A DNA stretch of 64,000 nucleotides from contig CP136068.1 in NCBI GenBank assembly GCA_032622095.1, positions 151,305,151 to 151,369,150 of the forward strand. The letters are read 5' to 3'. Positions within the stretch are counted from its first letter, which is position 1. Every line of letters begins with the position of its first letter. Below the pieces are notes generated by a model. That model had not been told where the DNA came from, did no database searches, and was given only the letters and a program-made list of their open reading frames with translations. Shown here piece after piece: positions 28,008 through 64,000 of the stretch. Source of the stretch: Siphonodentalium dalli. Lineage: Eukaryota > Mollusca > Scaphopoda > Gadilida > Siphonodentaliidae. Made by a program: the position numbers and the translations under genes.

Positions 28008-28011
28008 AAAC

Positions 28012-28027
28012 GGCCCTTTTCAGGGCC
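28012..28027 (+). promoter_or_regulatory. Histone-type mRNA 3' stem-loop
   Basis: GGCCC-TTTTC-A-GGGCC: six-base stem GGCCCT/AGGGCC with loop TTTC, preceded by AAAAAAAC and followed by ACACAC. This matches the canonical replication-dependent histone stem-loop (GGYYYUHUNARRRCC with flanking CAAA/ACC-type bases), the site bound by SLBP for 3' processing. A purine-rich AAAGAG lies 14 bases downstream, where U7 snRNA would pair. No histone coding sequence is found just upstream, so this is an isolated signal. Confidence 0.6.
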
Positions 28028-28330
28028 ACACACTTTCTCCTAAAGAGTAATCTTTAAAATTACTAAACCTTCATAATTATATTGCTTAATAAAAAGTCAT
28101 TGTTTGTTTTTATTCCCCACTACTTGCCCTTTGATCTTCATGTGACCCACCACTGACTTAATCCAATCAGCCGCCTATACAATAGCAATTAACAGCTAAT
28201 TAGCGACTCGGCTGATTCTAACTACAACTTTTAGTGTGCTGGAGAACGAAAAATGTCGATAAAAGTTGAAATATAAGACTTACAAATTACCTTTTTATTT
28301 TTTTTTATTTGTAATTGGCATAACTTACCA
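28028..28330. other. Unannotated AT-rich stretch
   Basis: No coding frame, RNA gene or repeat family recognised. Ends in a poly-T tract near 28,290-28,310 before GC-rich satellite begins. Confidence 0.5.
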
Positions 28331-29545
28331 CCGGTCCTACTAAAACCCGACCGCACCCGACCGGACCCGATCGGACCGCCCCAGGGGTCCGAGCGAGATG
28401 GGGTTTGCAATATCGTGTAGAATGGAACCGAATGTACCAAATTTATAATCCCCAAGTCGAGAGCTCGAGCGGACACGGCACTGTTAACCCCTGACTTGCG
28501 GCCGTTTCCGCCAGGTACGGGAAATCCAAAAAGGCGCCGACCGCACCACCCCTGACTGCCTGACCACGAAAATGGACATTATATCATGAAGGAAATACGG
28601 CTATTCATCCATGAGCGATCGGACAAGTCGCTAGCTGCAGCGGACGTGAATAAATTGACCCATACGCCGCTGCCGAATTCGCTATAAATGTACACAAAAA
28701 CGCCGAAATTAACACCCGCCGACCGGACCGCCCCCAGGGGTCCGAGCGAGATGGGGTTTGCACTATCGTGTAGAATGGACATGAATGTACCAAAGTTCCA
28801 ATCCCCAAGTCGATAGCTCGAGCGGACACGGCACTGTTAACCCCTGACTTGCAGCCGTTTCCGCCAGGTACGGGAAATCCAAAAAGGCGCCGACCGCACC
28901 ACCCCTGACTGCCTGACCACGAAAATGGACATTATATCAAGAAGGAAATACGGCTATTCATCCATGCGCGATCTGACAAGTCGCTAGCTGCAGCGGAAGT
29001 GAATAAATTAACCCATACGCTGCTGCGAATTCGCTATAAATGTACGCAAAATGCCGAAATTAACACCCGCCGACCGGACCGCCCCCAGGGGTCCGAGCGA
29101 GATGGGGTTTGCACTATCGTATAGATTGGACCCGAAAGTACCAAATTTCCAATCCCCAAGTCGATAGCTCGAGCAAACACGGCACTGTTAACCCCTGACT
29201 TGCGGCCGTTTCCGCCAGGTACGTGAAATCCAAAAAGGCGCCGACCGCACCTCCCCTGACTGCCTGACTACGGAAATGGACATTATATCGTGAAGTGAAT
29301 ACCCATATGCATCAACGGGCGATCGGACAAGTCGCTAGCTGCAGCGGAAGTGAATAAATTAACACATACGCTGCTGGCGAATTCGCTATAAATGTACGCA
29401 AAAAACGCCGAAATTAACACCCGCCGACCGGACCGCCCCTAGGGGTCCGAGCGAGATGGTGTCTGCACTATCGTGTAGAATGGATCCGAGTGTACCAATG
29501 TTCAAGTCGATAGCTCGAGCGGACACGGCACTGTTAACCCCTCGG
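28330..29545. repeat. 353-bp GC-rich satellite, about 3.4 copies
   Basis: The marker GGGGTCCGAGCGAGATGG recurs at about 28,384, 28,737, 29,088 and 29,442, a period of 351-354 bp. Each monomer also holds AAATCCAAAAAGGCGCCGACC and GAATTCGCTATAAATGTAC. Monomers differ by a few per cent. The first and last are partial. The short open frames across it change between copies, so it is not coding. The TATAAA box is present in each full monomer but nothing shows it is a promoter. Confidence 0.9.
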
Positions 29546-37031: not shown

Positions 37032-37151
37032 ATGGATGATTGCCAGAAGTTGAACGAAGAGCTGATTAATGTCATCAAACCAGATTTTTGTAATCAAGTA
37101 TCTTCAAAGCAGATCCTACCTTACCTTACTTTCCTAAATGTTGATGATGAG
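37032..37151 (+). CDS. Exon a: CARD, N-terminal half
   Basis: Forty codons ending DDE before a GT donor (GAG/GTTTGT). Contains FCNQVSSKQILPYLTFL, which matches the helix 1-2 region of MAVS (FCNVDVVEILPYLPCL). An acceptor-like TACTTGCAG at 37,001-37,009 suggests that the start codon sits in the second exon, after a 5'-UTR intron. Upstream of the acceptor the frame is open to ATG 36,984, but that would put the polypyrimidine tract into the protein. Confidence 0.85.
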
Positions 37152-40100
37152 GTTTGTCAAACATATTTATATCTATAGCTGTCATGATTATCTAACTCAT
37201 TCAATGCCGAGCCCTTATCAAACTACATGTATGTTGGCTGTCCACCAATCCCCCTTGAGGAACGTCATAATGTTATATTATTATTATTAGCTCAACTTAC
37301 AGGTCGTACATTTGGTCGGGTCATTATGAAATTTGTCATGGCTGTTGACATGTAGATTGGAACGAGTCATTTTGGGGTCATTCGGCAATAAAACATGGCC
37401 ACATCTTTCATCCGATCATCACCAAATTCATATGGATCTTCGGGGTGACCTCCAGATGGGAACCATCAATTTTGTTTTAAATATGGCTACCGGCAGCCAT
37501 CTTTGATTTCAAATTTGAATTCATTGCCCCACACTGCAGGCCACATTTATTGGAGAAATGTTTTGAAAATTTACAAGCATGTTTTGGATCACCTCTAGAT
37601 AGAAGCTATAAAATTTGAACGATTTTCGATGAAAATAATGGCAGCCGACAGCCATCTTGGATTTTACTCTTTGCATGACTAAATCCATTGCCACACCCTA
37701 CAAGCTTAAGCCAGCTGCCTCATTCAATCATCACCAAACCTCATACATGTAGGTCTCTTCAGGGTGACCTCTAGATGGGAGCCGTCATTTTTTTCTGAAA
37801 CTCATTAAAAAACATGGCCGCCAGCACCCATCTTGGATTTCAAAGTTGGATCAATCGCCTCACCCTGCAGCCCACATTGTTAAATAATTGTTTTGAACTT
37901 TACAGGCATGTTTTGGAATACATGTACCTCTTGATTAGAGCCATCAATTTTATTTCTGAAATTCCTGAGACTGAGAAACACCCTGCAGGCCACCTGCCTC
38001 ATTTAATCATCATCAAACTTCATCAGTATCTACGGGATGACATCTAGATGGGAGCCGTCATTTTTTTCTGAAACGCATTAACAGCTGAGGTCTTTATTTC
38101 AAATGTCATCAAACTGCTGGCTGTTACTACATCTTTACCATCTTTAGAATTGGTGAATGTGCCAACATCAACATTCACCGATGTGGATCCATGCATAAAT
38201 GCTAGATATCAGTGTGTGGACAATTGATGCATGGGTGCGACACCAGATAGGACGATTAGAGGAATTGGCAAAGTAAGTGGAGCAACCTGCAGTTATGCCA
38301 ATGCTCCCAGAAATGTGCTGAAATATACCAATTAACAGTTGTCTAAATACTACTTATTCGGTCAGTCAGTCTCTTGATGTCCTTTTCACATGTAAACAGG
38401 AAGATATGTGCCAAAGATTTGATCATAGGCATGAAGCAGGCTTGGGGCAATTACTTGTGAATGTAATTAATTACAATTACAATTACTTCAACATTTTTGA
38501 ATTACAATTACAATTCCCATTACATCTATTTCACAATGTAATTAATTACAATTGCAATTACTTTGAAATGTAATTCAATTACAATTACAATTACATTTCA
38601 GCACATCATTGAAGTAGGAACACTTTTTATTTATATAAACTCTATTTGATAACAAAACATAAATTTAATACAAGCAAGATGAAAATACACAGTGAAGCAC
38701 ACTTGGTACAGAGCAGCCAATGTACTGAGCCCAGTATAGGTGTTCGTAGAACTGAGCGAATCATGATTTATAGCTGGTAACTCCAGCGTGTTGAATTGGC
38801 AGCTTGTATTCGGAGTTGATCTTCTAGAAAATGGAATGATATCAGAGATTTATGAACTTTGCTAACTATCTTCAATGCTTTGGCATTCTTGACCGATGTA
38901 TTTGCATACTGAAAGATCCTAGTAGGCTGTTGATCACTTGCTGATGGTGCTTGTTTGACTGTGGATTCATAGACATCTTGATGCTTTCGCTATAAAATGA
39001 ATATAATAGAGTATTTTAGTAACACACATGTATCCATCATTTAATTATAAAGGGAATAAGGCTATCTCAGTAAGTCAGACACACAGCCAGGCCAATGTTA
39101 AAGGACAATGAGATAATCAACACTCTGATTGTTAATTAGAGTCATAAACTTAATTAGCCTTTGTGTCCACCAGCTTACTGGTAACACAATGCCTCCACTA
39201 GACAGTGCTAATTGGGGGATTATTTGTTCCCACTTTGTCATTCAGTTGCAAATTAGAAGGGACAAGAAACAATGCATATACCAATACCACCATATGACTG
39301 AAGTTATATGTCAATGGAATTAAACAAAACTAATACATAGAAATGGAAACTTACCTTCAGATGTGTCACAAAATTGGAGGTAACTTTTTTGGAACTGGAT
39401 ATTGTAGTTGGGCAAAGTTTGCACTTCGCTTTCATAGGACACGATGTGTCTTTCTGCAAATTAAAATGCTGCCGTATTTTGTGTAGACATGTTGATAGCA
39501 TTAGCAATGCTTAAGCAAACAAACAGGAGGTGTCAACATAATTCACCATTGAGACACAGTGGATAAAAACTCAGTGGTGTGACAACATAGTGATAGCTAG
39601 TCACCATTCTTACACTTTGAAATTTGGAAAAAAACATTGGAAGAAACCATTGGATGAATCATGAAATAGAACTTTGAGAAGAAACAAGTACCTGTGATTT
39701 TGAAGTAATTGAAATTAGACCCTAATTACAATTACAATTACATCCTAACCAATTACAATTGCAATTACATGTAATTGAGAATATACTCAATTACCAATTA
39801 CATGCAATCACTTGAAAAAATGTAATTAATTACAATCAATTACAATTACAAATTACAATTACCCCATCCCTGGCATGAAGGAAGGGAGAATATAGTTGAT
39901 TGCCGTACATCTCAAACCCTGTGAACATATTCTGCATTTGTACATTTATTTGTATGTGTGAACGATTCCAATTACCGACTGTGATGTGTCGTTAATATGT
40001 TGTGGCCAAATGGACGTAACCGAATCAACTTCATTGGTGATATCAATCATGTGCTGATCTATGTTTTACTTTGTCGATATGTTTGTGTTCTGTTCTTCGT

Positions 40101-43100
40101 GTATAGCCAGTGTGACTAGCTTGTCTATTATTATACCCCCCGCAACGAAGTTAGGGGGGGGTATACTGGAGTCAGCTTGTCCGTCCGTCCGTCCGTCCGT
40201 CGTCCGTCCGCTTCGTCCATCGTCCGTCCGTGGACACAAATTTGTCCGGAGTTTTTCTCAGTCGTTTTTTGATCAATTTCCGTGAAACTTGGCACAGACA
40301 TCAACCACCATGGGAACCTGTGCACCTGCGATTATGACGTCTGTTGGACTTTTTTTAGTGGAGTTATCCCCCCTTTTTCGACTTAGAAAATTTTCACAAC
40401 ATGTATACTTTTGTCTGAGCTTTTATTCCTACATTTTTCAGTCAATTTTTAAAAAACGTGGCACAGATATTTAGTACCATGGGAACTTGTGCACTTGCGA
40501 TTATGACGTCTGTCCGACATTTTTTGGTGGAGTTATCCCCCTTTTTTTATTTAGAAACTTTTTTTGCAACATTCATAATTTTGTCCGAGCTTTTATTCCT
40601 ACATTTTTCGGTCAATGTTTTTTAATCTTGGCACTGATATTTAGTACCATGGGAACCTGTGCACCTGCGATTATGACGTCTGTCCGACATTTTTTGGTGG
40701 AGTTATTCCCCTTTTACAACTTAGAATTTTTTTCGCAACATACATAATTTTGTCCAAGCTTTTATTCCTACATTTTTCGGTCAATAGGTTTAAGATTAGG
40801 GTTATGGTTGTACACCTGCAATGGGAACTGTTATTTTATTATTTTAACTAAATGTTTACTGACATGTGAAACATCTTAGTATTTTAAAAACAGGGGGGTA
40901 TCCGTAGTCCCATTGGGACAGTCACACCTCTAGTTGTTATTGACAATATATGCTTCGCTCAACGAGGAGAGGAGAGAAAGAAGAAAGTGGTTGCGCCAGT
41001 GGGTTGTATCGAGTTGAGACTGTGTTTGGTTGTATTGTTTGTGACTGTCCAATTGCGGTCTCTATTATAACAAACCAGGTTTTCTCTCTTGGTTTGGTCA
41101 GAAATCTTGACCGCATGTATTATTGTCTCGTTCTAATAAATACTCATTTGATCGAACATTGTCATCTGTGTTGGTTACCCGACTATGTAACTACCTAAGT
41201 AATGGCGGAGTGGAAATTTATTTGGGAATTTTTTTGGAAATCAGTGTTTGATGTTGTTTTCAAATTTCATCCTAGAATTGGTTGTATCATAATTTTAATA
41301 GTGTGTCCGACTGTGTGTCGGCATTTAATAAGGCCGGTTCATTGGTATTTTTATATTGCCAGTAGTTAAGTATTTGATTTAAAATCCTTGGATAGCTGTC
41401 ACTTGTGGGGCTTCCAATGCTTCCTCATCAATATTTATATGTGTTATCAACCAAGATACTTGTTGTCCATAATATCAAACACCGTGTCATACACCTAATA
41501 ATGTCAATAATTGACTCCTGCATATTTTTCTAATCAGGATGGGTTATGTGACACCTTCATTTTATGACAGTATGATGTTGCTTACTTATCAGATTACAAT
41601 TTACCAGATTTAAGATCTAAAAGACAATAGATCATCTGACTTATTTTCCTTAAAGGGCTCAATTAAACCTCATTTATCGTGTCATCTTTTATATTTTTCC
41701 AGCGTCATTTTGAACAGCAACTACACTGCGTCCGAATGGAAATTAGGAGTGAGAAAATAGCACCAAATTATTCAGAGGTGGACATAAATAAAACAAAATT
41801 GAAAGATATACTACAAAATAGGTTGCTGGTATACTTTTTCGGTGCGGTGATAGGAAATATCAATGCATGACAACCAAGGCAGTGCGTTTAACTTGGAACG
41901 TGGTGCATTATACTTCAACGCGGTCACAACGCACTTGCAACACGTTATGAACGCAACGACCACTGTGTTTTAACAGTCCTACCGCATTGTAAACGACTGA
42001 GGATCGCATTAAAACGGACATTTATTTTGAGAATATGTGTATGTGTGCATTAACATGAGTCAGCATGTATGTACCCACGGGCAACTTAAATCATGAGATT
42101 TGCATCCATGATCGTGAAGGCAGGTGATGGGTTGTGAAATTGTGAGTGTCACATCAAAATTGTATGAATTAAGATGTCTGCATCTTCCGATAGTTTATTT
42201 CCAATAATATTTGCTTGGTGATGATATCTCCTGCTTTCGCGATCTTTAGACTGAAATAATGATATGCTGTCAAAACATTGCAATTGGAAGATGTCGATTT
42301 CCGGTATATTTGTACAGTAAAAATTATCAACCGACAATTACCGAAATCTGGAAAATACCATATAAGGGCGGAGAAATTTTAACTTTACCTCGCGACAGGT
42401 TTGATTTTTTTTTAATTTTCCGGGAATTGTCATTGGCAGGTTTGTAATTCAAGTTGGTCTTGCCTAACAACAATAATTGTATGACCATTATACCCCCTCC
42501 ACAACAAAGTTGTTGGGGGGGGCGGTATATTGGAATCAGCTTAGCTGTCCGTTCGTCCGTCTTGCTGTCTGTCTGTCGTCCATCCAGCCATGGACACAAA
42601 TTTTGTCCAGAGTTTTTCTCAGTCATTTTTTTAATCATTTTCCGTGAAACTTGGCCCAGATATCAACCATCATGGGAAACTATGCATGTGCGATTATGAC
42701 ATCTGTCAGACTTTTATTGGTGGAGATATCCCACTTTTTCTACTTAGAAATTTTTTGCAACATGTATAATTTTGTCCGAGCTTTTATTCCTACATTTTTA
42801 GGTCAATTAATTTAAAACTTGGCACAGATATTTAGTACCATGGGAACCTGTGCACCTGTGATTATGATGTCTGTCCGACTTTTTTATGAAGTATTCCCCC
42901 CCTTTTTTTACTTAGAATTTTTTTTGCAACATGCATAATTTTGTCCGAGCTTTTATTCCTACATTCCTGAAAAATAGCCCAAAAATGTTCAAAATAATTT
43001 TCTGACCCACGCGAACCCTCGTCTGGCATATCACTATTTGTTGGTTTGTTTTTATTTATAGGAACGGATTTGCAAGAAAGAAACAACACTTGATGGTTCT

Positions 43101-46100
43101 CTGGAGTTTATTCATTTTCTACACAAGACAGGAAATCCATTCACATGGGTTGATGAAACAATCAAAGGTCTACAGCAATTGAAATTCAAAGATATAGCTC
43201 TTAAATTGGAACAAAAAAGAGGTTTGTATTAAGTAGTAGTTAATCTGCTATATCCATATGTTGCGTCAGTCTGTTGAGATACCACAATCTATCGTCTGTC
43301 TTTTTGTCATTCACATGGTGCATGGCAGAATTGATTTTGTAATAAGTGCAATATTGAAGACCAATCTTTCTGTTATAGACACATTCTGTGATAATGACAA
43401 ACCTGTCAATTCTGGACATCTAAGTTATTATGCCTGGGCATATAAGCGAGGGCTCTTTCCATCCGTCTGTCGTACCGTCTGTCCACTCATTGTCCTTTGA
43501 CATGGTGATAGCACAGGTTGGGGGAAAGGATTACGGGTTTCGTCCATTAATTATACCCCCTATTAAAAAAAGAATGGTATACTGTTTTGACCTGTCTGTC
43601 CATCAGTGCATCGTACCATGTGAACGTCCATCCGTCTGATGTCTGCTCATGTCATAACTTGAACAGTAGTGCCCAAGTGATTGTTTAGCCTTGTTGTATC
43701 GTACGATAACATGGGAAGTTTTTAAAGGCATGGATGCTGTGTTGCTGTGAAAATAGTCACATCCATTAAAACCGCCATAAACAGAAATAATATGAAGATA
43801 TAGACAGACTATGTTTTTATACCAATCATAAATATCATGTAAATTTTATCCTATTGTCAAATTTTTATGCTGTGTTATGTAAACAAAAGTCAAAAATGTT
43901 ACAGAACCAGGCTTTTGTTTACATAACACAGCGTTCGAACATGACAATAACATACAATTTATGAGATATTTATGATTGGTAGAAGAACAAGATATGTCTA
44001 TATTTTACTACTCTTTCTGTTTATAGCAATTTTAATGTGTGTGACTATTTTATCAGCATACCCAATGTGAAGGCCATCAATGCCTTTAAAACTATAATAT
44101 TGTTGACAAGCAAAATTGTTAAAATTATTGTGAGTTGAAGGGTCAAACGAAGTTTGAATCTTCATGAAAATTTTGGGTCAAGTTTCCAAAAGTTCCGGAA
44201 TTATGTGAAAATATAAAGGGATATATCACCATTTGTTGTTTTATTGTGGCTCTCGCGGTTTATTATCGAGGAAGGAGGCAAGCGGGAGCTGGCCTGCTCG
44301 GATTTTCTTTTATGTTTCGCAGCGGAATGTATTTTAATGTTGTAAATTTCATTTGTGATGATGACAAGCATGGACCTAAGTGTTTCCAGCGTGTTCGATC
44401 CTGAACTCTGTCGATCCGACTCGTGTTTTTTGTCTCGACGATTCTCTCCGACAGCACATTGCCACGAAGATAGGGGAGACCGCCATTTCTTACCCAGCCG
44501 TTCCTTCGGACTGTTTTACTCCAACTTTGCGTTTTAACTGTTTTAAACTATGTTTTACTGAACAATCATTATATTATCCTGCTGGTGCAGTTGAGGAGTG
44601 TGAACCATGCGTTGCAGTGTCATCGTTGGTCTGCTGTTTCTTCCGTGAACTTTGACCTTTCGTCATGTATATGCGATGCACCAACTCTATCAGAATGGAT
44701 TTTATGTATACAGAGTTTCGCAGTCATGTTGCCGATCTGAATATGCGTGATACTTTGCTTCGGATACAGAGTTTCGCAGCGCTCCGGTCTGAAATGCGTT
44801 TATACAGAGACCCTAGTATTTTGTTGTTGTGATATTTATAGGCCTATTTATATTATATGTACTTTTCTGTATAACAGAGTTTCGCGGATCGTTGATCTGA
44901 ATATGCGTTATTCGAGTCATGAGTTCATTTCGAACTGGGTATACAGAGTTTCGCGGTTCACATGATTGATCTGAATATGCGTCTATACATTGACTTCATC
45001 ATGAAAGAGCTTGCACTGGTGTACAGAGTTCGGGCGATGTGATATGTTCTCTGGAGGGATCGGTGGATGGACTTGACATTCAGGGCAGTTCCAGGCTCTC
45101 CAATAACATCCTGGTCTCAACTCAAATTGTTTCGGAACTTTCGGCCTCACCTTCTGCGCTGTTGTACCAGCTGTGTTCCAAAAAAACCTGTTAGGACCTA
45201 CATGTGAACTGTCATTGCTTTGTTTTTATTAGACAGTCTTTTACATGTATTTTACCCCATATATATGGGGGTGCGCTGTTAAATAATCGGCGGAATTTCC
45301 AATAAACCATAACCATAACCAAACCATGTGGCCTAACAGATTCCATGGTTATTATATATGTGAAACAGATACCAAGGACATAAAAATACAATCACAGCTT
45401 GCTATAGGCCTCTATTATCTGACCAAAGATGGAGAAAAAAATATACACAGAGACTCAGAGTAATCTCTCCCACTTTTCTCAAACTTTTTTATAACCAGAT
45501 ATTAGTGTCATTATGACCAACAGGAGACGCCAGAAATTTTGATATATAGAAATGAAAAATGCGAGTGGGGGGGGGGGGGGGGGGGGGGGGAGGGTGCAAC
45601 GAAATAGAAAACTAAGTATTTTTAGCTCATCTGAGACAAAGTCTCCGGTGGCGCTATAGTCATCACTCCTCGTCCGTCCATCCGCCTGTCCATCCTTCTA
45701 GCCGTCTGGCTGTCCGTCCATCAAGAATCATCTTCTCTAGAACTAGAAGACCGAATGGGTTCATATTTGGTGTGGATGTTCCGTAGGTGACTCACATTTA
45801 GATTTGTTCAAATGAGGTAACCAGGTCAAATAGTTGCAAAAGCAGGGCCATAACTCTATTCCTTCATAGTAATTCTTAGAGCGACTTCTCAAGAACCATT
45901 GGGCTGATTTAGCTTATACGGTATGGAAGGTCCTTGGGTGATTGGGGTTCAGATTTGTTCAAATGGGGTCACTGGTTCAAATAGGGGCACAGTCAGGGAC
46001 ATAACTCATTTTTTTTTTTTTTAAATAAATTTTTAGCTCAACTTTACTTTATAAAGTTTGAGCTATTGCTACAGGTCGTACCTTTGGTCTGATCATTAAA

Positions 46101-52100: not shown

Positions 52101-55100
52101 GTGGTTAGCGCGTTGGACTTGTCTTCGCTGTCAACACAGCGAGGCGAGTTCGCGGCTGGCTGGTGGTCTGTTATGAGTTTCCACACAGCAGTGGCTTGGC
52201 CGACTTGAGCGATATGCAATTGTTGGATTGTACACTGTTTGAATCTCGCGCCAAGTTGTGACCCTTGAGCAAGGTCGCTCGTACTGTGTCTGCTTTGCAC
52301 CACCCATGCATTACAAGGGTACCTGATAATGAGCAGTGAAAGATCTTGTCAGTATGCTAGCCATATGGTATCCTCGCATACTCCCGGCTGTACCTCCCCC
52401 TGTCCCCGGGGAGCAGTAGATGGTTACTGAATGTTCAGGCTCATCAGGGTAATAATTGTAAAACTTTGAGCGCTTTGGGCCTCATGGGAAAGGCGCTTTA
52501 CAAATGCTATACATTATATAACTAAAGAACTTAGGGTCTGTATCATCTAATATTGGTTTTATAGTTGTCATTATAGCTGGTTTCATAGCTGTGTGTCCAG
52601 TGTTTGCTGGCTTTATAGCCAGTAGTCAGTTTAGTAGCCAGTTTTATTTGGTTTTAGCCAGTTCATACATGCAACCGAATTGATAGCTTATGATATAGCC
52701 AGTCTTGGATCTATGTATCCCTAATTTTAGCCATGTACATAGTCATGGTGTGATCCAGTTTTATAGCTGTACTATCAGTTTTATAGCCATTTACCATGTG
52801 CACAACCTGGTGGCCAGCCCATGTTAACAGGATTGTTAGCCAGTTAGCTGATATTGAAGCTTTTTTAGCCAATATTGAGCCTTGCATATAGCCTCTTATG
52901 TATCCATTTCTTTTTCTGTATTTTTTGGACGTATTGTTGCTCGACGTGTGTTTATTCACATATGTAGTGTTCAAAAATGGAATGGGGCTTGATTGTACTG
53001 ACTGCATGGAATGTATATTAATGTATACACTAGTATATATTATTGACTAATATGTTGGCTTTAAATAATTGCTTGACTTAAATTTTTTCTCTTTTTTTTT
53101 CAGCTGAATTAGAACCCCAAATCCAGAAGTGCCAGCCAGTTCCAAGTAAGTTTATCCTAATTCCCACCTCTGAATGAGTAACATATCTGGCAAATAAATA
53201 AATATACATTCAGCTTTTTAGCTCTGCTTTACAACATAAAGTTTGATCGATTGCCATGGGTTGGCATCTATCGTCCGTTCGTGCATGCATCAATTCGATG
53301 AAAAACATGGCCACGAGCAGCCATCTTGGATTTCAAATTTGAATCCATCGGCACACCCTAATTAATTTTTGTTTTGCCAAATGGAAATAAGTTTTGCCAT
53401 TGGCAAATTTGGCAACTGACAGCACAAACTCTCTTGTCACAACTAAGAGGCAACTTACAAGTCATCATGTCAAAGACACAGCTCACTCAATGGTCAACAA
53501 TCTCACAGGGGAGGTCTGGCTCATACACAAGCTGATTCTTTGCAAGGAGTACTATGGATAATTTGCGAGGAGGTCTGACCGAATTGCACTGTTTAGTATA
53601 ATGGAAAAGAAAGGAGTGTACAAATATATCCTGGCTTTAGAAGTTCATTTTGATATTTTTGGTGAAATGGGCTTTATTATACTTCCCATATTTTTAATAT
53701 GGAAGTATATTATAATTCTTAAAAACATTTTTAGTTTTTATTATACTTTTTTATTCCGAGGAGTTGATATCTCAGGAACTCTAAGGTCAAAGGGGGCTGA
53801 TTTGATAGTTTTATTTTCAATAAAACCTGTAGTGTAAAGTATGTTGTTTATGTAAAAAGTTGAATTATCCCAAATGTTCAGTCAATATATGTAGGACTAT
53901 ATAAGACTCAACTGGATATCAGTTGGAACTTTGCAACCATAGGGGCCAGGGCAGACAGATCCTACTCTTTTATATATTTTGATTAACATAAACAATCGCC
54001 ATACCTAGGCTATACGCTACTTATAGAATTCTAATATTTTGTATATGTATAATTTCAGGCACCCCTGATCAAGGGTTTGGAGGTAAGTACATTATGAGTA
54101 AATCTCTATAACTTGTAGTCATATGTTCCATTTGTTTGGCTATTATGATGGTAAGTATTTAATAGAATAATATATTTAACTTTTTGTATCATTGTTATTT
54201 GTTTAAACTTCCAACAATTTCTGAGCAGTACCTCAATTCTCAAATTACCCATTCAAAAAACAACTCAGCTGAATCACAGATTCTCTTTGGCACTATGACA
54301 TGCATGACTGATCAAATAGTCTATAGCATCATGATAGCATCATCATTATTGAAAGATGATAGTCCGATTTCCACATCTGTAGTTGCTTAAAGATTTACAG
54401 ATGAATTATCTATAACAACTGTTATATAAATAATTTCCTGGGTACAAAATAATAAATATGAATCATCTAAATTTTGTTTCATACTGTATTCAGTACATTG
54501 TATTTCTGCATAAATTATCTCATTTCACTCTACTTTTATCATTTCAAATTACACTTTAGTCATCAATATTCGTAATATAATCTAATATTCTAGCAAATCC
54601 AGTTCATAATCTGCACATTCAATCAGTTTTTATTCAAGGATGACATTTTATTTATTGAATAAAGGCATTTAATCAGCAAGTGTTTGTGATTTTTCATACT
54701 TTTTATCAGTGTGATTGGCGAAATTTATTTAAGCTCCGCCCACCGCTGTCACACTGTTAGCAAAATATGTGATATTCACCAGAGGATATAGTCAGGTGAC
54801 TACACTGATTAGCTGATAGGTCCCTCAGTTAAAATGTTGGCAATATGTTCGGGATTTTTTTATGTTAAAAAAGTAATTTAATTATCTCGTCAAATTCAGA
54901 GGGGGGGGGGGGGGGGGGGGGGGGGCTGGTGGTCTTGATCAAATTTGCTACCTGACCACCCACCCCTTCTTTTTATTTGTTCAAGGCTAATATTTTGAGA
55001 CCCTGCCCCCCCCCCCAAATAATTGTGAATAAATAAGGATAATATGAAACAAACTTATATCAGCCTGGTTCTTTCCAGCAATTACTATTTAGCATATTCC

Positions 55101-58100
55101 AACATGTGAATACAACACAAAACAGGGGAATGGTAGTAGCATGATCGGACGCAAGATCATAAAAACAGTTCCCATAGGTATCTGCTTCCCATCTTCTTTG
55201 CCAACATTGAAATACATCTGAGTGAATAAATGAAGATATGCATCATGTCCATGGATTTCATCTGTAAAAGTCACCTCACAATCCTAACCATGCATGTGCA
55301 CATACAGTGTTCAAGTGTTTTGGCCGATGCACTCCATTTGGCATTCTAATGGACTGGGCAGTATGTTAGTGATTGTTGATTGCTAATATGTGGTCTACAA
55401 TAATATTCAAAATAAAATGGTTTGGTAACCAGTGACTGCTGTAAGAGGCTCCAAGGGCAAGAAGATATTTGCAAATAGTTTGTTATAATTTTATACTGTT
55501 GACATGTGGATGTCTCATTTTGTCATTAAAATGGGTTTATGTTTTATGTATGCAGGACTGTTTTATGTCATGACAGGACTGCTGGTACATGCCTATTGAC
55601 TTGAATATCAGCGGGCAGAAATACTGAGAAAGAATAAGACCTGACAGGGTTTCTGCTACTATGGCAGGCGGCCTCATGCCCCTCCCCAACCTTGACTTAA
55701 TATTAGCCACAAGATAGCCACATATCTAGCTCAGCCCCCTTTTTGCACATGACGAGCGATCACCGACACTGATTATTAGCTCAACTTTACTTTGTAAAGT
55801 TTGAGCTATTGCCATGGCTTGGTATCCGTCGTCCATGTGTGTGTGTGTGTGAGGGTGTGTGTGTGTGCATGATTCGTCAACAACACGGGCTACAGGTCGT
55901 ACCTTTGGTCGGACCATTATGAAATTTGTCATAGTTGTTGACATTGACATATAGATGGGAACGAGTCATTTTGGGGTCATTCGGAAAAAAAACATGGCCA
56001 CCAGCAGCCATCTTGGAATTCAAAATTCAACACGGGCTACAGGTCGTACTGTTCGTCTGATCATCATGAAATTTGTCACGGATGTTAATGTTGACATGTA
56101 GATGGGAATGAGTAATTTTGGGGTCGTTCTGCCAAAAAACATGGCTGCTGGTGGCCATCTTGGATTTTATTCTTTGCATGACTAAATCCTTTGGCACGGG
56201 CTACAGGTCATACCTTTGGTTGGATCATCATGAAATTTTTCACCGATGTTAACAATGATATGTAGATGGGAAAGAGTCATTTTGAGGTCAATTGGCCAAA
56301 AAACAAGGCAACCAGCAGCCATCTTGGATTTCAAAATTCAATCCATTAGCACGGGCTACAGGTCGTACACTTCGTCTGATCATCATGAAATTTGTCATGG
56401 ATATTAATACTGACATGTAGATGGGAACAAGTAATTTTGGGGTCGTTCTGCCAAAAAACATGGCTGCTGGTGGCCATCTTGGATTTTACTCTTTGCATGA
56501 CTAAATCCTTTGGCACGGGCTACAGGTCGTACCTTAGGTCGTATGAATTTTGTCATAGTTGTTGACATTGACATATAGATGGGAACGAGTCATTTTGGGG
56601 TCATTCTGTAAAAAAACATGGCCATCAGCAGCCATGTTGGATTTCAAAATTCAATCTATTAGCACAGGCTACAGGTCGTACTGTTCGTCTGATCATCGAT
56701 AAATTTGTCATGGATGTTAATATTGACATGTAGATGGGAACGAGTAATTATGGGGTCGTTTGGCCAAAAAACATGGCCACTGGCAGCCATCTTGGATTTT
56801 ACTCTTTGCATGACTGAATCCTTTAGCACAGGCTACATGTCGTACCTTTGGTCAAAGGAAGACAGTCATGACATTTCAACTTTCGCATTCCTAATCGCTA
56901 CATTGACTGTAACACATGAAATTGTTCCCTTTCCAAGTTGAGCTACAGTATCATTGACACTTTCATTAACAGATTAGCAAGGAATGCTACATTTTGTGCC
57001 TGAATAAGACATGATCAGTAGCGCTTACCACTTGCACTGTTGTCTACACCATCCTGAGCGACGCTTTGTTGACGAATGTTTAGTAGTAATCAGCCTCTCG
57101 CATTTTAATTTACCAAAGATTTCTGTCTATAAGTCCAACTTTCTGACCCACTGTTACCCCTCAAAATGCACATTATACATCGGTAAGTCATTAGGCGGGG
57201 CTGAATTCTGAGCTACCACCAAGAACACAGGTGAGATTTGGCAGTTGCTGAGACGAAAAGTGCAGACCTTTTACCTCAAAACAAGGTCTGTGTCAAAGAA
57301 ATGTTTTATGAAAATAAAACAATTAAAATATTAATAGTTATTATCAGTGTATTTATTCCCTATCCAATTAATAACAAAATATCTATTATACGAATGCAGC
57401 ATGAGGTCATCTTCATCTGAGGATATGGCTTTTGATTATACACCAAATTGTTTTGATTGGTACCATGAACAAAATACAAGGAAAGCATACAGAACGTGTA
57501 TATACATGTAGCATGTGACATGAGCTCTGTGCATGACTGCTAGAGTACACTTGACACTGAGTGTGACAGTGTGTCTTTTGCCAACCGCGGTAGTTCCTTT
57601 GATGTGGGCTTTAATAAATTAATATGCTATTGTTAGAAAGTCATTGTATCCATTGTATGTTGTGGTGCTTACATGCTTTTAGTTCTTTAACTTGAGATCA
57701 AATAAAGACGATCTGTTTTAATTTGGTTTCTATACGAAGCTTCATTGTTCCTGCTTGTTGTCTCATGTGCAAGGAAATGGCTACTTTTCAGTGATAAACA
57801 TCCAAATTTTCTCCTGACAGGGCGCCGGATATGTTCTTCCCAAATACGGCCACAACCTCCCAACCCCTAGCGGAAACCCTGCCGGGATGGCCACTACCTG
57901 AAGTACATGTAATAGTATTGATAGTGGAATATAGGCTTCCAGGAAATATAATTTGAAAACAAAAAACAATTGTGTCACCATGCTCGAGTAAACCATTGTT
58001 TCAGGCCTCAGCATAAGAGGCGAGCAATTGCTTGTGCATGCCTCTTTCATGCCTAAATGATTTTGAGGCAAGCTCCTACCGACTCACCTCGGTCAGAGAA

Positions 58101-61100
58101 TATTCCTTGCGCCTCAGCGATCATGATCAACCAATGTTCAGTATGCGTGGCATTGCTTACGTTAACAATGAGCCACGAGCTCGACATACACTTATATCTA
58201 GTAACTAGCTGAAACAGGGTCCTGAATTTGGTTGAAATCGGTCAAGGGGTCACCACACTGCAGGGCATTATAAGATTTCATTGTACCAGTAAAACTCTGC
58301 TAATACTCTATTGAATCAGCGTAATGTCCATAAAGGAGATCCGTTGAAAGGGTTAATACTTTAGAGTAGATAGTGAATGACCTGTAAAGTGGTAATAATA
58401 TAAAATGGTTAAGAGCATGTAATATAGAACAATAAGTGATATTTTATATTCATTAACATTATATATCGCCTTCCATGTTTTATTACACCCATTGTACGAC
58501 ATGCCAAATATTATCGTTAAACTACAGTGTGAATAGAAACATCCTCCAATGTAGTGTCAATTAGTTCATTGCTCTTGGTTTAACCATGCAATGTAATGAA
58601 CAAATTAATAGACCCGAACAAATTAACTCATTCCGTGCCGGTATGTTGTCACCCGAAAGATGCCATCAGTGTGTCAACGAGATATCTCATCACCCAAAGC
58701 ACCATGTTTTGATATAGGGGTTCTATATCACAGTGCAGCGTAAAATCATGGACATATCATTGATTGCATGGCGAGAATCTGTTTTTACATACAAAAAAAA
58801 ACAATGAAAACTGGCAATATGCCCAGGAAACTCGGTCATTATATCGGAAATCCCCAGAAAGTTGGCACTGATTGAGTTAACATGATTTTACAGTATTTTT
58901 TTTCTTTGTAGATTTAAGGGTTTCAAAGAAAAAGAAAGTATTCATTGCAGGAGCAACTGACATGAATGATAAAGAACAGAAAGATATTTGTTATAATATT
59001 CTGAATAAACTAAAGAAAGCTCAACATGAGTGCAAAGGACCAGTTGCCAGGAAAATTCATCCAGGAAAGCATGCAATAGAATCCTATGAAGAGGACATCA
59101 ACGATTGCGACAAATATGTCTTTATTCTGTTTGGAGACTGTTTGCAAGATGGAGAACCACTAGAAATAATGCTGTTAATGTGCCTGAACAAATGCATCGA
59201 AAGACAGAGCATCGATATTGTTATTGTTATAGATCCTAGTTTTTGCTCAAAAGATCTACCAAATAATCATTTACTGTCTGCTAAAATGGAGATTGAGCCA
59301 AACAAACCAAGACGGATTGCAATAACTGACGTGCTTGAATACCCAGACCGTGTTCTTGCCCAAGTTAACAGTAAGTTACTAAATAATACTCAAAACAACA
59401 GGCCTGGCAATATGGTGCGAGCGATTTTATCGCTCACGCGTCGCCCGCGCAATTTCAATTTGGCGTGGGCGATATATCGCTTGCGCAACATTCACTACCC
59501 AACATACTTTTTCAGTCGTAATTTTGATGAGTTATCCGTTTGAAAACATACAAGGCAACGCGACATCGCATCTTTGAAGCAGGATACACATGCTATGTTA
59601 ACAGTCGGCTGCCACCAGTATATCTAATTAGGTCAAACCATGCTACACACCTGTCACCAGTGACAGACTGACGATTACATGACCTAACTGTGAACGTGCA
59701 GTGCTACCCACAAATCTTACCTCACCTACAATGTAGTTTGATGAGCGCTGTTGACAGCGATGGGTGGGGCTACGAAGGAATCCGCCAATCGCGCAACAGT
59801 GCTCGCTGACATGTAAACAAATGAGGTGAATGAAGTGACGAAAACAAAGAATAAATATCGCGATATCATGCTATTAATTACATGAAATGAGTGATTTATA
59901 TATAGCACGGATGGGTTATGAGATGATACAAACATAGAAGTGATTTAATTTATGATACTAGTATATACGGAATAATGTATGTTTTGACGCCATAGAAGTG
60001 GACGAAATTTCACAAATGTACGGAAGCCGCGAATGTACCGATGGATATAAAAGTATGGAACAAATAAATGCATGATATAATGATTGATTCTGGTTAGGTA
60101 ACTTGGTCACTCAGGTATAAAGGAACAAACACAAACATATCATGTACATGTATGTACAATATATGCATGGCATAATGATTGATTCTGGTTAACTTACAAT
60201 AATATCTTACCATGATGTCACCTAATACATGTATTATACAGTATAACAGCATGTAATATATGATATAAATATATTATAATGATTGATTGATTCTGGTTAA
60301 CCATTAGGTCACTTGGATCAGGCATAAAGGAACAAACACAACAATACCATATATGCAAGACATTGTATAACATTTATAAAAGTACTTTATTAAACATTAA
60401 TAAGTTATACAACATTCATTGATAATTTCACAATTAATATATGATTATAAATTAATTAAATTTAAATATTATCACTTACCACATAATAAGTTATATGCAA
60501 TATGACATATGTCAGTTTACTTGTATTTCATATGTTACAACATAAATACCCCATAGAACAGAAATTGCCTCTGCAAAATATTTTAGCCCCTGCAAAGTAT
60601 TTTGGCGAGGGCGAATTTTAGCCCCTGCAGATTTTTCATAAGGCCAGCACTGAAACAAGTGTCTGTTTTAGTGTGGTAATTTGTCATTATCAATGTGGTG
60701 GCTATGTTAAAGCATGCTTTGCACTCTGATGCCAAATGTTTTTGGAAATGACAAAGAAAATTTCATTAGGCCAAACAATTCAAGCCTAAAGCAACAGTGG
60801 TTGATTGATTGTTTATTATAATGCAATTTTAATTCGCAATTTATTGCCATGTCCGACTTCACTACATTCATCATAATATGTTATACCGTTGCCAATTCCA
60901 TGAAATATTCCTGATCATCTTTCAGTGGGTAATATTTGGACCTCCTAAGTAATCATAAATTAGAACCAGTCAGAACAGTGTGTTATTTGAGAATGTAATC
61001 GCGATGTAAGCAGACATAATCAGCCATGTGGCATTTAGCGATGTCCACTTCGATATCTTTCAGAAAAAGGCAATAATAGTTGATGTATATATAACTGAAA

Positions 61101-63064
61101 AGCATTCTTTTCCTGCAAAATGGTTCACTAGTGATCAGCGTTTAAGCGGGCAAATAAAATTAGCTCATTTTATCATTCCCTGTTGGTTTAGTTAGTGGCA
61201 TATACATCTGTGATGTCGGCATTAATCTGTGGATCTGATATGTCAGGAGGGGAAATTTGGGTATGGGGAAAGGGACCCTAAAAGGAAATTGGTGCCCCTA
61301 TAGCGGGAATCCCTACTTAAGATCCCAGATCTCACTGAAGACCTAACATTCATTAACTGTAAATTAGCAGTTGTTTGCCGGTGTATGTTTGAATAACAAG
61401 TAAAGTTAGCCGACTATAGGGGTCAGGCTTCTCAATGGTACCAGTACCGGAACAGTAGGTACCTTGACAATTTTCAAGGTACCAGTGCTGAGTGATGAGA
61501 AATGCAGTACACGGAACTAGGCGGTCCTCAAATAAATTAGTAGTTTACATACGTTGTATAAGTGATGGATAACTGGATTAAGATGTTATTTGCAGCATTA
61601 ACAAATCCAAATTTGAGGGGTGAGAGAAATCAAGGGGAGTGAATTCTTTGTCCGAATCCTCACGGTCCTCGTTTTGATGAGCTGCAGGGGCTCTGCTAAC
61701 CCTTGCGGTGTATGTGTGCCTGCTTGTTGGAAGAAAGCAACAATGGGGTTAATATTCAACATGGCCATGGCCACCGCTAAAGGGTCGAAATCCACATTAA
61801 CACGAAGAAAATCCAGAGCCACTGCATGGGCGGATGACTGCCTCTTCTTTTTTGGGGCAGTAATAGAGCTACTAGTAGTCCCCACATTTTAGGGCTTCCG
61901 ATTGGAACCCACAATTGATTTGGCCCTTGTGGGAGCTGTGTCCATTGAAGTAAGAGTGGCAGTGGGTTTAGAGACTGTCGAAGTCCCCGTAGTTAACCCT
62001 TTCAGTGCCAAGTCCAATTTTTGTATCAACCCATATTTCCCTGATCATTTTTCAAATTTATTGATTATAATAATGTAATACATTGATGGAAAGAGCTCTT
62101 TCCATCAATGCATCACATTATTATAATCAATACATTTGAAAAATGATCAAGGAAATATGGGTCGATACAAAAATCGGACTTGGCACTGAAAGGGTTAAGA
62201 GCCAGTGGGGCTGAACCCTTGTTGTTACCTGAAACGGAAATAGGCCCGGTGAACCGGATGAAAGAAGATTCATCGTCTGAATGACTTTCCAGCTAGTCAA
62301 GTAAATCAGCTTCACAATCACTGTCCATTAAAGTATCATGTAAATTCAAGTCTATCACCATGGTATCTGGAAAAACAATTCCGGCAAGGGCTTTAGAACC
62401 CAATTTTTTGTCTGAAAATTATTAGTAAAACATGTCTGCATCCAATGCCGTACGAACAAAAAGTGACCAGCCAGGTGCTCGGATGGCTATTGCTAATCCC
62501 TATGAGTCAACAAGCACTTAAATCTTTTCTTCGTACAATGGACAATTTTACCGTAATGGACAATATGCACAAGTTAACTCTTTGAATATCGACAATTTCT
62601 GAACCGAACGTAAGGAATAGAATCTAATTTTGACCAAATTTGAATCATAAATCTTTGATTAGTTTAGAAAACCAGTCCTAACTGAATTTATTTTCAGTAG
62701 TGATTGTGTTCTTAAGCACGATAACTTTTACAAATATAATTCGATAATGTCCTGTTTTTAATCTTTTGGATGTGTTTGAAAACCATTTTTTTTTCAGGAG
62801 ATACATCTCCTGGATTTTTCATGAAGTATCTTAGATCATTCTAACAAACGCATTCTGATTTTGAACAAATTTGGTTAGTAGGTTTTACTCAAGCTCACAT
62901 TTTTTTATACATGTACCACGTACAACTCGTAATAGCATATCTGATGCATACCTCTTGTTCTCTTTCAGCTGACATAGATATGAAGACTTTCATGCCATAT
63001 GGTAACATTGCTCATGGTCAGGCATGGTCCCACTATACAGGATTTATAAAAATCATCGGGCCTC
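37032..63064 (+). CDS. CARD-TIR-STING fusion protein, 3' end outside window
   Basis: Six exons join in frame: 37,032-37,151, 43,062-43,221, 53,104-53,145, 54,059-54,082, 58,912-59,370, 62,969-63,064, all with AG/GT borders; intron phases 0,1,1,1,1,1. They give 300 codons so far. Residues 1-93 form a CARD like those of MAVS and MDA5. Residues 94-120 are a linker. Residues about 121-268 form a TIR domain. Residue 269 onward starts the STING ligand-binding domain (NIAHGQAWSHYTGF; human STING has NVAHGLAWSYYIGY). STING binds cyclic dinucleotides; TIR domains signal or cleave NAD+; CARDs nucleate filaments. TIR-STING fusion is established for oyster; an added CARD is the unusual part. No membrane segments are seen, unlike vertebrate STING. 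Start chosen because the CARD then begins 19 residues before the FC of its first helix, as in MAVS, and the context is AATATGG. Confidence 0.85.
37290..38090. repeat. Interspersed repeat family A (ACATGGCCGCCA), diverged copy
   Basis: Starts AGCTCAACTTACAGGTCGTAC and holds subrepeats of about 150-190 bp marked by GACATGTAGATTGGAACGAG, AACATGGCCGCC and CCATCTTGGATTT. Intronic. The short plus-strand frame 37,814-38,047 is repeat sequence. Confidence 0.8.
38437..39872 (-). mobile_element. hAT transposon encoding only a BED zinc finger
   Basis: Flanked by a perfect 8-bp duplication GCATGAAG (38,429-38,436 and 39,873-39,880). Ends CAGGCTTGGGGCAATTA and, reverse-complemented, CAGGGATGGGGTAATTG, typical hAT termini. 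Both subterminal regions are long runs of AATTAC/TAATTG motifs (38,450-38,605 and 39,700-39,865), as expected for subterminal transposase-binding repeats. It lies in the first intron of the CARD-TIR-STING gene, in antisense orientation. Confidence 0.92.
38768..39507 (-). CDS. BED-type zinc-finger protein of hAT element (two exons)
   Basis: Exon 39,355-39,507 encodes KCKLCPTTISSSKKVTSNF then VTHLK and ends at donor AAG/GTAAGT. Exon 38,768-38,989 starts after ACC TTTTATAG with RKHQDVYE, completing the BED pattern C-x2-C...H-x4-H, and reaches a stop at 38,768. The result is about 125 residues: BED DNA-binding finger plus a short tail, with no catalytic RNase H-like core and no hAT dimerisation domain. 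The acceptor TTTAATTTGCAG inside the first frame may mark the real start of that exon. Frame integrity suggests the truncated protein is, or was until lately, made; it could act as a repressor of related hATs (inference). Confidence 0.7.
40132..40935. repeat. Interspersed repeat family B (CCGTCCGTCC head)
   Basis: Begins TATACCCCCCGCAACGAAG, has a CCGT-repeat tract at about 40,180-40,235, then three subrepeats of about 168 bp marked by TGTGCACCTGCGATTATGAC, and ends CAGGGGGGTATCCGTAGTCC. Outer ends are inverted (TACCCCCC/GGGGGGTA). Intronic, non-coding. This kind of repeat is common in marine invertebrate genomes. Confidence 0.85.
40936..42487. other. Intron 1 sequence, one possible cassette exon
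   Basis: Mostly unique DNA. The stretch 41,703-41,828 is open, has an acceptor TATTTTTCCAG and a GT following, and is phase 0 on both sides, so it could be inserted between exons a and b. It would interrupt the CARD and has no known domain. Confidence 0.3.
42488..42966. repeat. Interspersed repeat family B, second copy
   Basis: TATACCCCCTCCACAACAAAG head, CCGT-type tract, and two of the TGTGCACCTGTGATTATGA subrepeats. Truncated about 95 bp before exon b of the CARD-TIR-STING gene. Confidence 0.8.
43062..43221 (+). CDS. Exon b: CARD, C-terminal half
   Basis: Acceptor TTTTATTTATAG, donor G/GTTTGT, phase 0 in and phase 1 out. Encodes ERICKKETTLDGSLEFIHFL... up to KLEQKR, matching helices 3-6 of a MAVS/MDA5-type CARD, including the Trp of the FTWVDETI helix where MAVS has GWVEYFI. 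Confidence 0.87.
43552..43645. repeat. Repeat family B fragment
   Basis: TATACCCCCTATTAAAAAAAG head followed by CTGTCTGTCCATC-type tract. Confidence 0.55.
43718..44093. mobile_element. Fold-back MITE, about 175-bp arms
   Basis: The left arm (TTTAAAGGCATGGATG...TATGTAAACAAAAG) is repeated in inverted orientation on the right (CTTTTGTTTACATA...CATCAATGCCTTTAAA), with a loop of about 25 bp near 43,890-43,915. Arms agree at most positions. Intronic; nearly the entire element is one hairpin. Confidence 0.85.
44240..45325 (+). repeat. Probable retroelement 3' region with ACAGAGTTTCGC repeats
   Basis: Contains four or more diverged 60-110-bp repeats with ACAGAGTTTCGCAG...GATCTGAATATGCG (44,709, 44,766, 44,876, 44,943) and ends AATAAACCATAACCATAACC, a short tandem tail of the type that ends LINE copies. 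No RT frame. The assignment as LINE 3' UTR is inference. Confidence 0.45.
45567..45590. repeat. Poly-G tract (24 G)
   Basis: Homopolymer inside intron 2. Confidence 0.95.
45625..46020. repeat. Interspersed repeat family C (AGCTCATCTGAGACAAAGTC)
   Basis: Head AGCTCATCTGAGACAAAG, a CCGTCCATCC tract, then two related subrepeats marked by GATTTGTTCAAATGRGGT. Intronic. Confidence 0.7.
46028..46945. repeat. Interspersed repeat family A, long copy
   Basis: Starts with the hairpin AGCTCAACTTTACTTTATAAAG...GAGCT and contains five to six tandem subunits of about 160 bp (ACATGTAGATGGGAACGAGT, AACATGGCCGCCAG, CCATCTTGGATTT). Subunits alternate in detail, hinting at a dimeric internal organisation. Confidence 0.88.
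46946..48450. other. Intron 2 sequence with GTTCATGAAC-rich patch
   Basis: Positions 46,950-47,195 hold many copies of TCATGAAC/GTTCATGA in both orientations. The remaining stretch shows no recognised element. Confidence 0.5.
48455..49015. repeat. Degenerate minisatellite (CACTCCCTGTATACCTATTCAC)
   Basis: Irregular repeats of about 45-60 bp, each with CTCCCTGTATACC or similar followed by CATGAYCATAC. The His/Thr/Pro-rich open frames on both strands are a by-product of the repetition. Confidence 0.75.
49016..51777. other. Intron 2 sequence, unannotated
   Basis: No exon-like frame with fitting splice phase, RNA gene or repeat family recognised. Confidence 0.5.
51782..52002. mobile_element. 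piggyBac-type MITE (221 bp) with palindrome module
   Basis: TTAA on both sides (51,778-51,781 and 52,003-52,006), termini CCCTTTGAGTGCCAGG/CCTGGCACTCAAAGGG. Contains one copy of the 70-bp palindrome (51,828-51,896) that is found twice in the MITE at 35,063. Confidence 0.9.
52092..52514 (+). mobile_element. tRNA-derived SINE
   Basis: Flanked by a 24-bp direct repeat TATATAACTAAAGAACTTAG... (52,068-52,091 and 52,515-52,538). The head GTGGTCCAGTGGTTAGCGCG is a Pol III A box of tRNA type with a B-box-like AGTTCGCGGC about 45 bases later. The tail AGCGCTTTGGGCC...GGAAAGGCGCTTTACAAAT is the conserved end shared by many animal SINEs and L2/CR1-type LINE tails, through which the LINE RT is thought to recognise them. 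The long perfect target duplication means recent insertion. Confidence 0.9.
53104..53145 (+). CDS. Exon c: linker micro-exon (42 bp)
   Basis: Long polypyrimidine tract then CAG, and donor AA/GTAAGT. Phase 1 in and out. Adds AELEPQIQKCQPVP, a Pro/Gln-rich linker. Confidence 0.7.
53217..53355. repeat. Repeat family A fragment
   Basis: AGCTCTGCTTTACAACATAAAG head and ACATGGCCACGAGCAGCCATCT core, close downstream of exon c. Confidence 0.65.
54059..54082 (+). CDS. Exon d: linker micro-exon (24 bp)
   Basis: Acceptor ATAATTTCAG, donor AG/GTAAGT, phase 1 in and out, encoding STPDQGFG. Very short, but both splice sites are strong and the phase fits both neighbours. It may be an alternatively used cassette. 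Confidence 0.6.
54083..55773. other. Intron 4 sequence
   Basis: Unannotated apart from a 25-bp G run at 54,901-54,925 and a C run near 55,005. Confidence 0.5.
55774..56945. repeat. Interspersed repeat family A, full-length copy
   Basis: Begins AGCTCAACTTTACTTTGTAAAG and ends TTCCAAGTTGAGCTACAG, so its outer ends are inverted (AGCTCAACTT/AAGTTGAGCT). A GTGTGTG tract sits near the head, followed by six to seven subunits of about 155 bp. Best copy in the window for defining the family. Confidence 0.88.
56946..58622. other. Intron 4 sequence, unannotated
   Basis: No exon, RNA gene or recognised element seen. Confidence 0.45.
58627..58876. mobile_element. TTAA-flanked MITE (250 bp)
   Basis: TTAA at 58,623-58,626 and 58,877-58,880. 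Termini CTCATTCCGTGCC and, reversed, CTCAATCAGTGCC: related to the AGTGCC-containing ends of the other MITEs but diverged. Ends only 31 bp before the TIR exon. Confidence 0.7.
58912..59370 (+). CDS. Exon e: TIR domain
   Basis: Acceptor TTTTCTTTGTAG, donor ACA/GTAAGT. One exon holds the full TIR fold: strand A KKVFIAGATD, helix A KDICYNILNKLKKA, BB loop with Pro-Gly (KIHPGKHAIES), helix B ending DINDCDK, strand C YVFILFGD, helix C PLEIMLLMCLNKC, strand D IDIVIVIDPSF, and a last part RRIAITDVLEYPDRVLAQV. Glu200 of helix C is placed like the NADase glutamate of SARM1-type TIRs. The FW of box 3 is absent. The open frame continues past the donor to 59,543 but loses TIR character there. Confidence 0.88.
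59399..60652. mobile_element. Candidate hAT-like non-autonomous element
   Basis: Left end CAGGCCTGGCAATATG and reversed right end CAGTGCTGGCCTTATG are similar. Flanks share only AAACAA, so the target duplication is unclear. Contains three repeats of TGATTGATTCTGGTTA...AGGAACAAACACAA (60,080-60,345) and AT-rich DNA. No transposase. Starts 28 bp after the donor of the TIR exon. Confidence 0.5.
60653..61992. other. Intron 5 sequence, unannotated
   Basis: A small GGTACC/GGTACCAG cluster at 61,436-61,495. Overlapping open frames on both strands near 61,598-61,892 show no domain. Confidence 0.4.
61997..62194. mobile_element. piggyBac-type MITE, near-perfect palindrome (198 bp)
   Basis: TTAA at 61,993-61,996 and 62,195-62,198, termini CCCTTTCAGTGCCAAGTCC. 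The arms match over nearly 95 bp each around a centre AAGAGCTCTT at 62,091-62,100, so this is a self-complementary element. Confidence 0.93.
62199..62968. other. Intron 5 sequence up to the STING exon
   Basis: AT-rich, nothing recognised. Confidence 0.45.
62969..63064 (+). CDS. Exon f: start of STING ligand-binding domain
   Basis: Acceptor CTCTTTCAG, donor C/GTGAGT, phase 1 in and out. Encodes TDIDMKTFMPYGNIAHGQ then AWSHYTGFIKIIGP. The AHGxAWSxYxG(Y/F) pattern is the first helix of the STING cyclic-dinucleotide pocket. Relative to human STING, Tyr163 becomes His and the base-stacking Tyr167 becomes Phe. The remaining domain must lie beyond 64,000. Confidence 0.88.
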
Positions 63065-63895: not shown

Positions 63896-64000
63896 AACAA
63901 TTTTTATATGCCCATTTGAAAAAACTGTCGTATTATGTAAATGGGTTGGTTGTCTGTCCATCCGTCGTCCGTCATCCATCCGCTTTTGGTTTCCGGATGA

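Follow-up and report, generated by a model that had tools for sequence, protein, structure and literature searches.

A candidate CARD-TIR-like-STING gene in the scaphopod mollusc Siphonodentalium dalli

Siphonodentalium dalli, whose 2.2 Gb genome is assembled in 9 contigs, probably encodes in a single gene a protein that begins with a CARD of the MAVS/RIG-I type, continues with a linker specified by mini-exons and with a TIR-like domain, ends in a STING ligand-binding domain (LBD), and would cluster when the ligand binds. The window, that is, the whole stretch of 64,000 nucleotides that was analysed (G000:C8:151305151-151369150), holds six exons of this gene. The gene model was extended with 90 kb of downstream DNA, in which two more STING exons were located with the aid of paralog fragments. 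The exons were as follows.

37032-37151, plus strand: exon 1, first coding exon, first part of the CARD; 120 nt, begins with ATG, phase 0 donor gtttgt
43062-43221, plus strand: exon 2, remainder of the CARD; 160 nt, phase 1 donor gtttgt, stop three codons into the read-through
53104-53145, plus strand: exon 3, linker mini-exon; 42 nt, phase 1-1, peptide (A)ELEPQIQKCQPVP
53113-53145, plus strand: exon 3 with an alternative acceptor; 33 nt
54059-54082, plus strand: exon 4, linker mini-exon; 24 nt, phase 1-1
58912-59370, plus strand: exon 5, TIR-like domain; 459 nt, phase 1-1
62969-63064, plus strand: exon 6, opening part of the STING LBD; 96 nt, phase 1-1
108992-109206 (extended window coordinates), plus strand: further STING exon, about 45 kb past the window; borders fit, read by hand
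122596-122782 (extended window coordinates), plus strand: further STING exon, about 59 kb past the window; borders fit, read by hand

The six exons that a sequence-only reading of the window had described are real. AG precedes exons 2-6, GT follows all six, the phases are compatible and the join gives 300 residues without a stop. The same reading had called for an extension past position 64,000, and the two exons found there, with fitting borders, bring the gene, as far as it was traced, to a span of about 86 kb. The window copy thus has eight known exons, each of them open and with intact splice sites. No last STING exon was found in the 31 kb of downstream DNA that was compared with the downstream DNA of two paralogs (loci 2 and 3, described below); the comparison gave one weak 33-residue match with locus 2 and repeats with locus 3. 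The exon set is beyond chance, since other loci matched by the joined query show these exon types in the same order, and matches to a strict pattern for the mini-exons are rare.

Upstream of the gene, positions 1-27190 of the window contained 29 tRNA-Leu genes according to ARAGORN (28 tRNAs by Rfam), largely as AAG/TAG pairs that are carried, over the first 9.3 kb, by a 1227-bp repeat; three genes lie on the opposite strand near 19-23 kb. Two open frames interrupt the cluster, one at 10039-15073 on the minus strand and the other at 20241-22517 on the plus strand, the latter open for 758 codons; from their motifs, both are presumably reverse-transcriptase-like. A histone 3' UTR stem-loop (28007-28051, plus strand, Rfam 38.2 bits) adjoins a 351-bp tandem repeat at 28367-29542.

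Exon 6 had been read as the first helix of the STING pocket. Alone it scored 17.0 bits, below the Pfam cut-off of 27, and the assignment was borne out when the two downstream exons were added: the 435-residue model, which includes the mini-exons, matched STING_LBD (PF15009) at 3e-28 over positions 1-159 of 182, and the 413-residue model without the mini-exons at 2.5e-28. The best PDB match of the 413-residue model (86 PDB sequences at E<=10) was 6wt6, 'Metazoan TIR-STING fusion', with an E of 2.5e-18. The alignment, over query residues 159-411, passed from the middle domain into STING, and a profile gave the same result. Neither a homologue nor an annotated protein of this gene was matched in the protein database by the 413-residue model or the middle-domain profile, which counts against the gene model. 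The joined sequence, read by eye, contains SHYTGF (Tyr to Phe), GRPY and HYATP, which we take to be the sites of the human contacts Tyr167, Arg238/Tyr240 and Thr263/Pro264, respectively; by this reading the predicted pocket has its ligand-contact residues. The Pfam matches of the model, from which the last exon is missing, included neither the four N-terminal transmembrane helices of vertebrate STING or another membrane anchor nor its C-terminal tail.

The CARD exons alone matched CARD_2 at 5e-7, their 30.1 bits exceeding the cut-off of 28.2, and within longer joins the score was 26.1-27.0 bits, slightly below the cut-off. All five of the other CARD copies scanned alone were past it (31.0-42.6 bits), making six of six with the window copy. 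When a typed CARD consensus was compared with the PDB, MAVS CARDs ranked first, weakly, with a best E of 0.014. On these two grounds the MAVS/RIG-I type originally given to the CARD was upheld. The start ATG of exon 1 was kept in all six copies examined, and a GCAG acceptor-like site was present 22, 24, 30, 24, 34 and 23 nt 5' of it. The spacings differ modulo three. This suggests that a 5' untranslated exon precedes the CARD, which would then be truly N-terminal. Among 36 pairwise comparisons of the CARD exons, 25 were gapless and 11 had one gap of one or two whole codons, whereas in fixed 150-nt downstream flanks 35 of the 36 pairs had 2-5 gaps (end gaps included) and one was gapless. The dN/dS ratios over all pairs were 0.42-2.23 for exon 1 and 0.52-1.60 for exon 2 (short exons, hence noisy values, with exon 2 compared without locus 4, which the gap counts do include). 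The whole-codon gaps, set against the gapped flanks, indicate a reading frame that is constrained despite fast amino-acid change, a combination that may reflect host-pathogen conflict.

The genome was searched with the joined query (48 candidates scored, E<=0.001, 41 matches listed, so that all counts are lower bounds) and with the CARD only (25 candidates scored, E<=0.001). The latter gave at least 14 matches, which divide equally into exon-1 and exon-2 types and make at least seven pairs. The loci included the following.

C8 118.17-118.29, 119.10-119.22 and 119.37-119.72 Mb, plus strand: loci 2-4, at least three further CARD-TIR-like-STING loci, with the two CARD exons in order, then the TIR-like exon, then STING exons
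C3 198781228-198786460: isolated CARD exon pair (L035, L041, L058), exons about 2 kb apart, borders and phase as in the window
C8 118562058-118594050: partial copy or CARD-STING form (L044, L046), CARD exons 1 and 2 with the first STING exon about 27 kb on

The order CARD, TIR-like, STING on one strand, as first proposed for the window, recurs at three or more other loci on the same contig. The TIR-like exon starts in phase 1 in the window, in loci 2-4 and in a copy at C8 169.30 Mb (borders by eye). Elsewhere the parts occur separately. No TIR-like or STING exon was seen in the open frames of about 11.5 kb downstream of the C3 pair, and the matches listed include no TIR-like exon between the CARD and STING exons at C8 118.56 Mb. 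Beyond the CARD pair at C8 129.06-129.12 Mb, some 204 kb separate it from the next TIR-like exon found, which belongs to another clade; this region (129.06-129.60 Mb) had been considered a complete locus, its CARD being closely related to that of the window, and was dropped for that reason. Among the matches listed, a near partner is wanting for two of the seven CARD pairs (those on C3 and at 129.06-129.12 Mb), and TIR-like/STING loci with no detected CARD lie at C8 169.30 Mb, on C9, C7 and C5 and at other sites. The modules are thus separable. Their closest copies also differ, being loci 2 and 3 for CARD exon 2 (locus 4 not in the comparison), loci 2 and 3 tied with the window and locus 3 for CARD exon 1, and the window and locus 2 for both the TIR-like exon and the STING exons. 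This discordance points either to separate histories or to recombination among copies.

The CARD-to-TIR introns of the window, locus 2 and locus 3 were compared. Besides repeats, the window and locus 2 had in common two colinear stretches, with 72 and 75% identity, and both mini-exons sit inside them. The exon 3 counterpart in locus 2 is 33 nt long (42 or 33 nt in the window) and encodes IIQKCQPVP, the peptide IQKCQPVP being common to both, while the exon 4 counterpart is 24 nt long, as in the window; the borders are AG/GT and AG/GTAAGT, respectively, and both are phase 1-1. Exon 4 was no more conserved than its flanks. No counterpart of either mini-exon was found in the CARD-to-TIR intron of locus 3. 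A strict mini-exon pattern, defined after exon 3 had been seen, matched only exon 3 in 154 kb of the window region on both strands (window exon 4 falls below its pyrimidine threshold); in locus 2 it matched both mini-exons, and locus 3 gave no match. A direct join of exon 2 to the TIR-like exon, which was tried first, was dropped for the window and locus 2 and may apply in locus 3. Since the mini-exons are conserved, the six-exon model is the better one for the window and locus 2.

The middle domain had been called a TIR domain outright. The domain is colinear with oyster TIR-STING, as described above, and no TIR model came near its cut-off. With Pfam, exon 5 gave TIR_2 at 0.08 and DUF4062 at 0.078, both far under cut-off. 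The domain was aligned from 11 of the 13 TIR-part loci read (alignment A1, in which the C5 fragments L042 and L047 are left out, the C9 row begins past its in-frame stop, and row L030 was extended by reading flanking bases; additional TIR-part matches for which there was no locus were set aside); in a further alignment, A2, row L025 was extended from its flanks and row L027/L045/L005 carries a one-residue typing slip at a junction. TIR_2 appeared at E<=1 in five of the 11 copies (best 0.035) and DUF4062 in two; single copies matched the unrelated families DUF7656 (0.0027) and IL4_i_Ig (0.0091) better. One of two consensus sequences gave UPF0029 (0.072) ahead of TIR_2 (0.12), and the other gave no match. 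The middle-domain profile matched no PDB chain, PADLOC gave no match for the domain, and a single-sequence AlphaFold model was unusable (mean pLDDT 40.3). When hhalign was used to compare the middle domain with five TIRs, the probability was 5.9% and P was 0.0064, and the regions of GK, VFVLS and the catalytic glutamate lined up; with a piece of the oyster TIR the values were 9.9% and 0.0032, as against 0.1% and 0.4 for a CARD control. In the 5.9% alignment the glutamate of PLEIML, present in nine of 11 rows, falls on that of WVHKEIV, which we take to be the catalytic glutamate at the SARM1 WVHKE position. NADase activity would be a guess. The dN/dS of the TIR-like exon was 0.41-0.80 across pairs. 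The TIR label is only suggestive, and TIR-like is the term used here.

It is rather unlikely that, within one gene, the middle domain falls outside the TIRs proper and is another Rossmann-like domain, for instance a DUF4062-like one. The equally weak TIR_2 and DUF4062 scores would be expected from such a domain, as would the better matches of single copies to unrelated families, the consensus that prefers UPF0029 or matches nothing, and the empty PADLOC and profile-PDB searches. Against these stand the colinear register with oyster TIR-STING into the LBD and the hhalign P values, which are far smaller for TIRs than for the CARD control. The available text of a 2026 preprint calls the DUF4062 family TIR-like NADases (PMC13174449). 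A domain of this sort does not exclude the single gene that best explains the locus. Another alternative is that there are two neighbouring genes, one CARD-only and the other a TIR-STING gene with its own downstream start, which were duplicated as a block. This we consider improbable. The TIR-like exon, starting in phase 1, needs an upstream exon that ends in phase 1, and exon 2 does so, with its GT kept, in seven of seven copies; that same exon, if read through, meets a stop after 3-7 codons in all seven, as a CARD-only gene would have it, and the CARD donors, gtttgt or gttggt rather than GTRAGT, also count against one gene. The lone CARD pairs, the TIR-like/STING loci with no detected CARD and the only partly congruent distances of the CARD and TIR/STING parts fit two genes as well, and the oyster form, so far as the sources available describe it, is a TIR-STING without a CARD. 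The linker weighs on both sides: in the window and locus 2 its mini-exons, with acceptor and donor, lie between CARD and TIR-like exons, and in locus 3 they were not found. The single gene proposed by the sequence-only reading is nevertheless favoured, because the paralogs keep the order, making four loci with the window, and locus 2 keeps the mini-exons.

That the window gene is a decaying copy, a pseudogene left from a CARD-TIR-STING family active in the past, is quite improbable. Signs of decay occur among its relatives. In locus 3 the first STING exon carries a frameshift (L055, C8 119152546-119153638) and was left out of the comparisons, this copy probably being non-functional unless the assembly is in error, and on C9 an in-frame stop interrupts the TIR-like exon close to its beginning. 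The CARD dN/dS values near 1 and the very long introns would also suit a pseudogene. The eight open exons of the window copy, with their splice sites, argue otherwise, as does the dN/dS between the window and locus 2, which was 0.21 and 0.28 for two STING exons, although other window pairs reached 0.93 and 1.09 (all pairs, 0.14-1.33 and 0.26-1.09). A wider proposal, tentative and with somewhat less than an even chance, is that the copies constitute a fast-evolving multigene family whose members are cyclic-dinucleotide receptors. In these STING would directly gate a CARD of the MAVS class, while a diverged and possibly NAD-cleaving TIR-like domain would be a second output, and CARD and TIR parts would have been shuffled between copies.

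The best reading of the single gene, as judged from its domains, is that a cyclic dinucleotide would gate the clustering of its CARDs and TIR-like domains. The STING dimer would bind a cyclic dinucleotide and then pack into higher-order assemblies, as other STINGs do, which would bring the TIR-like domains and the CARDs together. The clustered CARDs could seed or recruit a MAVS-like CARD adaptor, and the TIR-like part might provide a second output by clustering or by enzymatic activity. An amplified family with a fast-changing CARD would be expected at a host-pathogen interface. According to the accessible parts of the respective papers, oyster MAVS binds the CARDs of RIG-I (PMC5557890) and lophotrochozoan RLRs swap their N-terminal domains through exon changes (PMC8998645), the latter being a precedent for a grafted CARD. 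Invertebrate STINGs are described, in the portions available, as being without the vertebrate TBK1-recruiting tail and as having an unsettled signalling route (PMC6723221, PMC8218723); oyster TBK1 binds CgSTING, as cited in the available text of PMC8218723, so the CARD need not be the sole output. If the proposal is true, a STING with its own MAVS-type CARD would have an output route that is direct and can be tested, and two branches of antiviral sensing, cGAS-STING and RLR-MAVS, would be physically united in one polypeptide.

Several known systems have parts in common with this gene. No CARD-TIR-STING protein was found described in the open literature, including what was accessible of PMC10732462, PMC13142454, PMC10855445, PMC8218723, PMC9334734, PMC8195603, PMC6321704, PMC6723221, PMC8998645, PMC5557890 and PMC8204762; the phrase CARD-STING had no match in a literature search, and the word CARD is absent from the available text of PMC8204762. 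The CARD resembles those of MAVS, RIG-I and MDA5 by the CARD_2 score of its exons and, weakly, by the rank of MAVS in the PDB; unlike RIG-I-like receptors, the joined model has neither a DExD/H helicase nor a RIG-I C-terminal domain among its Pfam matches, and the sensor is STING. TRADD-N-STING fusions likewise join an adaptor-type domain to STING, but the adaptor domain is a different one and TIR is not mentioned in the accessible text (PMC8195603). The bacterial TIR-STING of CBASS also combines TIR with STING, and its ligand-driven oligomerisation promotes TIR activity, according to the text available of PMC10732462 and PMC8204762; here, by contrast, the STING_LBD is of the animal type and a CARD is present. 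The former source, as far as it was accessible, calls the bacterial and metazoan fusions convergent and the role of the oyster TIR unclear (PMC10732462). The closest counterpart is the metazoan TIR-STING of Crassostrea gigas (6wt6/6wt7), in which a TIR domain lies directly N-terminal of the STING LBD, as the TIR-like domain does here. CgSTING, as presented in the available text, has 396 residues and consists of TIR and CBD only (PMC8218723), and a TIR-STING is also reported, in the part accessible, from Capitella teleta (PMC6723221). The oyster TIR is found by a TIR profile at 5.2e-17, whereas the middle domain of the scaphopod gene is under every TIR cut-off, and in the latter gene a CARD and a mini-exon linker come before it. 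The gene is best read as a variant of metazoan TIR-STING rather than a new kind of system.
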